Notes under the pieces: model-generated
Database searches by the model: none
The model's input: the letters and a program-made list of their open reading frames with translations, nothing else
Told to the model about the DNA's origin: nothing
Source of the DNA: Bdellovibrionia bacterium
GTDB taxonomy: Bacteria > Bdellovibrionota > Bdellovibrionia > Bdellovibrionales > JAGQZY01
Direction of reading: 5' to 3'
Length of the DNA stretch: 64,000 bases
Assembly: GCA_030424715.1 (NCBI GenBank)
Contig: JAUHWH010000009.1
Coordinates: forward strand, 1 to 64,000
Part shown: piece after piece, positions 12,462-28,962 of the stretch
Layout: each line of letters opens with the position of its first letter
How positions within the stretch are numbered: position 1 is the first letter of the stretch
Position numbers and translations under genes: made by a program

Positions 12462-12621
12462 CAAAACCGGCCACTCACCCTATTAACAGCGGCTTCTCCG
12501 ACCACTGGCTCCTGGGATTGAGTGGATAACCCAGCGTCTCGTTTTGAGAATCTTTTTTCATTTTTCATGACCGAAGATAAGACACTCGGAAACTAAAAAC
12601 TAGGTCCCACAAAAAAGCCTT

Positions 12622-12629
12622 GCTATACT
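12622..12629 (+). promoter_or_regulatory. Extended -10 promoter of the riboswitch RNA
   Basis: TGC-TATACT matches an extended -10 element (TGnTATAAT). It lies about 18-20 bases before the base of the c-di-GMP aptamer, so the transcript would start near 12636. No good -35 hexamer is present, as expected for extended -10 promoters. Confidence 0.55.
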
Positions 12630-12646
12630 GAACGTGTTCAAGAGAT

Positions 12647-12745
12647 CCTTTCTTTGCCAAAGGCAGTCCTGGGGAAACCCAGGGTTCGCAAAGCTAAAGG
12701 GACTAAGGCACTTGCTGCTATGTCAGCCAGCTACCAATGAAAGAG
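12647..12745 (+). promoter_or_regulatory. c-di-GMP-I (GEMM) riboswitch aptamer
   Basis: The sequence follows the GEMM-I pattern. A closing helix pairs CTTTC (12648-12652) with GAAAG (12739-12743). An inner arm CCTGGG-GAAA-CCCAGG carries a GNRA tetraloop. The conserved CGCAAAGCTA leads into GGGACTAAGG, and a second arm contains GCTATGTCAGC, the usual tetraloop-receptor arm. This class binds cyclic di-GMP. In Bdellovibrio such RNAs are known to be very abundant in attack-phase cells, although no expression can be read from sequence. Downstream come a strong ribosome binding site (AAGGAGG, 12765-12771), a tiny ORF and an intrinsic terminator. Short GGTA/TACC segments between aptamer and SD could form the switch, but the expression platform is not resolved. 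Confidence 0.9.
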
Positions 12746-12776
12746 ACCTTTTTTGGTAACCGGTAAGGAGGACATC

Positions 12777-12845
12777 ATGGACACAATGCCCATTTTTAGC
12801 CCGCCTACCCCCCCCCCCAAGGCGGGCTTCTTTTTTTTCTTTTAA
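12777..12845 (+). CDS. 22-residue leader peptide overlapping the terminator
   Basis: ATG 12777 sits five bases after a near-perfect AAGGAGG, a much better site than most genes here have. The peptide is MDTMPIFSPPTPPPKAGFFFFF. Its codons run through the whole terminator stem, the poly-C loop and the U-tract, stopping at TAA 12843-12845. It contains a Pro-Pro-Thr-Pro-Pro-Pro run of the type that slows ribosomes without EF-P. Translation would place ribosomes over the hairpin and could prevent termination, linking the riboswitch to the gene at 12870. This is inference. The peptide could instead be a chance product of the low-complexity sequence. Confidence 0.5.
   Translation: MDTMPIFSPPTPPPKAGFFFFF
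12798..12838 (+). terminator. Strong intrinsic terminator of the riboswitch RNA
   Basis: AGCCCGCCT (12798-12806) pairs with AGGCGGGCT (12820-12828) around a loop containing eleven C residues, followed by a U-rich tract from 12828. The RNA ended here would be about 200 nt. The terminator lies wholly inside the leader ORF. Confidence 0.9.
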
Positions 12846-12869
12846 GAAGCCGCAGGATTTAGTGCCGTC

Positions 12870-13253
12870 ATGTCGATTGTCGTTAAACTATTAATGAGCT
12901 TGTTACTGGCTCATGCCACCCCAGAGGGTGTGCCAGAGTCAAAGCCGACTTCATTTGTCCCTTTTTTTCAGAACCTACAGAGTTTGAAGCCAGAAAAGTC
13001 CCAGAGTTACCTCGCAAAACTGGGCAAAGCTTTTAAAGAATCCCAAGAGCCCGAGCTTCTTAGTATTTTACAAACATCCTTCCCAAACCAAAAGGGGTTA
13101 CCAACGGGCCCCTTTAACGAACCTGTTTTTCAGCGAATCTCATGGAACACCTTTGCCTTAAAGGTCACTCTTTATTGCAACAAAAAGCCTTCAAAAACCT
13201 GCCTAAAGATTTTCGAGATCCATAATGAGACTCTGCAGGGTCAAAATCCGTAA
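12870..13253 (+). CDS. Small exported protein downstream of the riboswitch
   Basis: 127 residues. The N-terminus MSIVVKLLMSLLLAHA is a likely signal peptide, cleaved before TPEG. The rest is a helical, Lys/Ser-rich region followed by a short stretch with two cysteines (YCNKKPSKTC) that could form a disulfide. No family was recognised. It begins 24 bases after the leader ORF stop, beyond the terminator, so its expression may depend on read-through from the c-di-GMP riboswitch transcript. Its own ribosome binding site is weak (AGGA, 13 bases from ATG). It converges with the PHP gene, only seven bases away at the 3' ends. Confidence 0.6.
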   Translation: MSIVVKLLMSLLLAHATPEGVPESKPTSFVPFFQNLQSLKPEKSQSYLAKLGKAFKESQEPELLSILQTSFPNQKGLPTGPFNEPVFQRISWNTFALKVTLYCNKKPSKTCLKIFEIHNETLQGQNP

Positions 13254-28886: not shown

Positions 28887-28962
28887 TGGGGTATCGCCAA
28901 GTTGGTAAGGCACTAGATTTTGATTCTAGTATTCGCAGGTTCGAGTCCTGCTACCCCATCCA
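28887..28962 (+). tRNA. tRNA-Gln (anticodon TTG)
   Basis: A complete cloverleaf can be drawn. The acceptor stem pairs TGGGGTA (28887-28893) with TACCCCA (28952-28958). The anticodon arm is CTAGA-TTTTGAT-TCTAG, giving anticodon TTG (Gln, codon CAA). The T-arm is GCAGG-TTCGAGT-CCTGC. The CCA end is encoded (28960-28962). It has its own downstream hairpin terminator, and its 3' end borders the repeat-rich region, a common integration target. Confidence 0.95.

Follow-up and report, generated by a model that had tools for sequence, protein, structure and literature searches.

In leader-peptide attenuators of the trp and tna type, the ribosome on a short ORF overlaps a termination signal, and the RNA described here resembles them in having a short ORF on which a ribosome is predicted to do likewise; unlike them, it has no conserved downstream operon and gives no sign of amino-acid sensing or ribosome arrest. 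merRNA, by far the strongest attack-phase RNA of Bdellovibrio, has been described as non-coding and is supposed to act as a store of c-di-GMP (PMC3627812); the 2013 paper reported no conserved ORF 3' of its riboswitch and no conservation beyond the Bdellovibrio lineage (PMC3627812). In the open-licence PMC papers that were searched, no report of an ORF in merRNA was found. The closest precedent found in the same literature for control of a short ORF by a riboswitch is the ppe2 B12 riboswitch of Mycobacterium tuberculosis, where the ligand turns expression OFF and the uORF is required by a real downstream gene (PMC11260477). As in ppe2, alternative pairing of the riboswitch is predicted here to hide or free the Shine-Dalgarno (SD) sequence of a short ORF; unlike ppe2, the predicted response is ON and no conserved gene follows (PMC11260477). 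The locus shares aptamer sequence and fold with GEMM-I riboswitches (RF01051) but differs from them in that it has no conserved regulated gene, its nearest target being a tiny ORF that the same short RNA carries. It would be an unusual design for a riboswitch to have, as its sole cis target, a tiny ORF placed at its own terminator.

The locus lies in a window of 64,000 nucleotides from the genome of a Bdellovibrionia bacterium (G000). A sequence-only reading had proposed a GEMM-I aptamer, and this is borne out at 12652-12738 (+) by a full-length match (1-87) to the RF01051 covariance model at 62.1 bits against a gathering score of 35, which is above chance level; binding of c-di-GMP is predicted. 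This is the single GEMM-I copy in the 3.13-Mb genome, and at gathering score Rfam matches just one other feature of the window, a tRNA gene at 28887-28959 (+). GEMM-I matches occur in 5/5 genomes of the window's family, beyond which a pattern scan of genome contigs found no further members, and in 137 of 369 genomes of the phylum, always one per genome. One of them is in G137, presumably the genome of B. bacteriovorus HD100. The HD100 aptamer (1073868-1073951, minus strand) falls inside merRNA (1,073,741-1,074,185, minus strand; PMC3627812 coordinates), and the published 3' end of merRNA is just past the terminator T-run (PMC3627812). The window, G003 and HD100 all have mrp upstream of the RNA, while in the sister genome G001 the block is rearranged and mrp is convergent. 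The single aptamer, the mrp neighbour and the end at an intrinsic terminator thus identify the window element as the positional counterpart of HD100 merRNA, which it also resembles in lacking a conserved downstream gene (PMC3627812). Massive attack-phase expression is known from HD100 merRNA alone (PMC3627812).

Sequence conservation between G000 and G001 begins at a putative promoter, continues to the T-run of the terminator and stops there. The promoter (12601-12629, +; TAGGTC at 12601-12606, 17 bases, TATACT at 12624-12629) is tentative because a sigma-70 consensus scan missed it; its counterpart in G001, TAGGCG-N17-TACACT, has equal spacing within an otherwise weakly conserved stretch. From this promoter the RNA is predicted to start near 12636, unlike HD100 merRNA, whose 5' part begins 234 bases ahead of the aptamer and includes an extra micro-ORF.

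Behind the aptamer, the near-consensus SD AAGGAGG (12765-12771) is followed after five bases by the ATG (12777) of a 22-codon ORF, MDTMPIFSPPTPPPKAGFFFFF (12777-12845, +; stop TAA at 12843-12845), as had been read from the sequence. UAAGGAGG, the 5-base spacing and the ATG are common to G000, G001 and G002, three of the four lineages of the window's family, and the combination of SD and ATG is above chance level. The alignment of homologues, which the earlier reading had named as its own refutation test, goes partly against that reading: the start signals hold in G001 and G002, but in G003 and G004 the purine element is not followed by an ATG at the usual spacing, and in G002 the ORF stops in the stem's 3' arm. 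The ORF does span an intrinsic terminator (12798-12838, +), with stem arms AGCCCGCCT (12798-12806) and AGGCGGGCT (12820-12828), a 13-base C-rich loop and a T-run. The same stem is present in G001; a consensus terminator scan missed the window's terminator because it accepts loops of 3-8 only. An ORF running across a terminator is real but not unusual, since 75% of 165 control frames across 55 HD100 terminators are open, and it was rejected as a sign of design. Similarly, the Pro-rich stretch to which a stall-type role had been assigned exists but is a product of the C-rich stem arm and loop that encode it. Differences between G000 and G001 in the 22-codon ORF are mostly non-synonymous, and conservation of the peptide in the window's family was rejected on that basis.

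Folds and family comparison indicate how these start signals could be gated. The 5' flank of the aptamer, Y1 (UCCUUUCUUUGCC, 12646-12658, +), has two possible partners: the 3' strand of an extended P1 (CAAUGAAAG, 12735-12743, +), which pairs with 12648-12656 through 8 of 9 pairs, or a purine element, R (GGUAAGGAGGA, 12762-12772, +), which contains the SD. In the folding model the Y1:P1 and Y1:R helices are mutually exclusive. Y1 pairs with R in the minimum-energy fold, and the SD element is sequestered in the free fold of both G000 (UCCUUUCUUUGCC with GGUAAGGAGGA) and G001. The extended P1 comprises 8 pairs in G000, 9 in G001, 7 in G003 and 6 in G002, and imposing it costs 11.9, 7.6, 3.1 and 3.1 kcal/mol, respectively. 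With P1 imposed, mean SD exposure rises from 0.05 to 0.24 in G000, from 0.02 to 0.22 in G001 and from 0.17 to 0.56 in G003, while in G002 it stays flat (0.31 to 0.32); in the window sequence most of the SD is still paired at that price of 11.9 kcal/mol. In G333, a member of family f26, the two folds are only 0.7 kcal/mol apart, and near iso-energetic two-state folds are seen in f22 and f26 (e.g. L006 and L039), where a same-strand queE-like radical-SAM gene usually follows the RNA closely.

Both helices are found in the window's family, and the Y1:R pairing was also compared across families. In 65 genus-level sequences from f3, f7, f9 and f22-f26, re-anchored with hand-chosen anchors, cognate partners form 5.92 of 7 pairs against 5.34 for swapped partners (p=0.0002, across families). 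Two-sided changes across families make pairs 3 and 4 either U-A or C-G, and pair 6 C-G, U-A or A-U. Within groups the signal is weak or absent: the cognate excess is slight within f3 (Bdellovibrionaceae) alone (p=0.03), and there is none within f22-f26 alone. An energy-based partner-swap test was only suggestive, because every partner is purine- or pyrimidine-rich. As judged from these alignments, an alternative Y1:R pairing that recurs across the phylum with two-sided changes is new here. The purine element is also present in families with no ATG behind it, so its likeness to an SD is partly structural. In f22-f26 the whole switch is enclosed by an outer helix, GAAGAGG:CCUCUUC, with one strand 5' of the aptamer and the other 3' of the purine element; in L056 it reads GAAGAAG:CUUCUUC.

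An ORF of 127 codons with a signal-like N-terminus (12870-13253, +) does start 24 bases past the stop of the 22-codon ORF, and the sequence-only reading had made it the output of a relay in which c-di-GMP promotes leader translation, the ribosome blocks the terminator and transcription enters this gene. Its co-directional position, the entry of the 22-codon ORF into the terminator and the predicted gating of the SD by the aptamer flank all agree with such a relay, as does a codon score of 0.113, which lies between those of genes (mean 0.30, minimum 0.148) and of wrong frames (mean -0.125, maximum 0.137). However, searches with the 127-aa protein gave nothing in the remaining four genomes of the window's family, the sister genome included, two weak matches among 139 genomes of the order and no Pfam family, and the protein has no detectable similarity to the small exported protein behind the G003 RNA. 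The next gene in G001 is mrp on the opposite strand, the nearest gene of at least 100 aa is convergent in 43 of the 54 Bdellovibrionaceae loci having one, and open frames across terminators are the rule. A conserved cis target was rejected for these reasons, although one private to the window's genome may exist. The relay as a whole is improbable: an action of c-di-GMP on translation of the leader ORF is plausible, because the start signals behind a real aptamer would be hidden by the alternative helix, but antitermination into the exported-protein gene is not supported by the related genomes. Of the two features of an attenuator, a conserved structural gene behind the terminator is therefore lacking, while a conserved leader ORF placed so that its ribosome would overlap the terminator is present in the Bdellovibrionaceae, with start signals kept in three of the four lineages of the window's family.

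In the Bdellovibrionaceae, merRNA contains an ORF of 7-22 codons that usually ends in F(H/Y)SP-stop at the base of the terminator; in HD100 it is ATGGAAGGAACAAATACATACAAGGATTGGTTTCATTCCCCTTAG, with the peptide MEGTNTYKDWFHSP-stop. Some start codons lie within the purine element and others a few bases behind it, with the common ending in both cases. The frame is kept up to a stop where the C-rich block ends in 49 of 58 loci with a recognised start; counted by genus and length, this holds for 27 of 33 classes, where a free length would predict one third (p about 1e-8, a value that assumes independence of classes that are partly dependent). The stop usually falls 1-2 bases before the terminator stem, compared with a median of 22 in 55 long HD100 genes, and the C-rich block lies before the terminator rather than in it. 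The linker peptide is free of amino-acid constraint, and in the in-frame classes the DNA that encodes the tail DWFHSP is itself frozen; translation as such or its location, or else a role of the tail as RNA, therefore seems to outweigh the peptide. On the genomes compared, this conserved micro-ORF would be new with respect to the findings of the 2013 paper (PMC3627812). A candidate far-upstream partner for the C-rich block was noted in this family, and L099, L106, L094 and L093 (genus g7) have lost the stop after FHSP, so that their ORF, like that of the window, extends into the terminator.

These frames bear on whether merRNA is coding at all. If it were a non-coding reservoir of c-di-GMP, as the literature has proposed (PMC3627812), or a structural RNA, the purine strand would serve only as the closing helix of the aptamer, and the SD, ATG and frame in the window's family would be incidental. 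Conservation of the purine element in ATG-less families, the unconserved peptide of the window's family and the convergent neighbours are all in keeping with that account, but the retention of UAAGGAGG, 5-base spacing and ATG in three lineages, and of the frame in 27/33 Bdellovibrionaceae classes, speaks against it, and it is considered unlikely.

The explanation favoured here, with a probability of about 50%, is c-di-GMP-gated initiation of a micro-ORF on a stand-alone RNA, with a ribosome that overlaps the terminator. The transcript, from about 12636 to 12838, would combine a c-di-GMP-I aptamer with a tiny ORF and an intrinsic terminator. Without ligand, the strand 5' of the aptamer would pair with the SD-bearing purine element and hide the start signals; c-di-GMP would stabilise the aptamer, the 5' strand would close P1, and the SD would be partly freed for initiation at 12777. 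Since the ORF extends onto the terminator in the window's RNA and ends at its base in most Bdellovibrionaceae, a ribosome on it would cover the terminator's 5' arm and weaken termination. The aptamer, the alternative pairing, the start signals in three of four family lineages and the Bdellovibrionaceae frame emerge from comparison of the genomes; the ON direction of the ligand is deduced from the geometry of the modelled helices only, and translation of the micro-ORF and its effect on termination and 3' ends are likewise inferred. In Escherichia coli, a terminator a few bp behind a gene is almost fully repressed by ribosomes (PMC4824070). Because the downstream gene is not conserved, the RNA probably serves to control its own output or the micro-ORF rather than a neighbour. 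If a switch does gate conserved micro-ORFs, the role of merRNA in the change from attack to growth becomes testable by point mutations.

Several observations count against this explanation. The massive attack-phase termination of HD100 merRNA shows that its terminator works; P1 is costly in G000, exposure is unchanged in G002 and covariation within groups is slight or absent; and the family peptide is unconserved, the Bdellovibrionaceae linker is unconstrained and the purine element occurs in ATG-less families.

The terminator could also be opposed with no ribosome involved, if R, once freed by c-di-GMP, paired with the terminator's 5' arm and loop to give RNA-only antitermination. The complementarity is perfect in G001 (GGUAAGG:CCUUACC), shifted but kept in G002 (AUAAGG:CCUUAU) and interrupted by one bulge in G000, where the possible third partner of R is CCUACC in the stem arm and loop (12804-12809, +), a weak candidate resting on few sequences; moreover, the G001 fold cut before the 3' arm pairs the SD element with the CCUUACC region. 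Against this stand its absence in G003 and G004, the position of the Bdellovibrionaceae C-rich block ahead of the terminator and the presence of just one clear compensatory change, which leave such a switch with little probability. Less credible still is that the RNA acts as a sponge, dependent on c-di-GMP, for CsrA or another GGA-binding protein: csrA was found in 20/20 relatives searched, including the window's genome, and candidate GGA sites occur in HD100 hairpins and, in several families, within the purine element, but the purine element of f22-f26, AAAGGGGGG, is without GGA.

A broader generalisation of the gated micro-ORF explanation, that merRNA of the Bdellovibrionales is a c-di-GMP-gated micro-mRNA whose terminator ribosome sets its 3' ends in the absence of a target gene, with a second conserved micropeptide added in the Bdellovibrionaceae, is unlikely as a whole. 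That second micro-ORF, absent from the window's genome, is seen in HD100 merRNA (L096), where its ATG lies 170 bases before the aptamer behind a strong SD, and has counterparts in g7, g15 and g21. Its peptide is MRTHEHHDDELK in HD100, MKNRIHDHHDEPPK in most of g7 and MKRIFNHNDKSPK in g21. Single-base codon differences within g7 comprise 366 synonymous and 141 non-synonymous changes, an N/S of 0.39 against an expected 4.67, which is a sign of strong selection on the upstream peptide.
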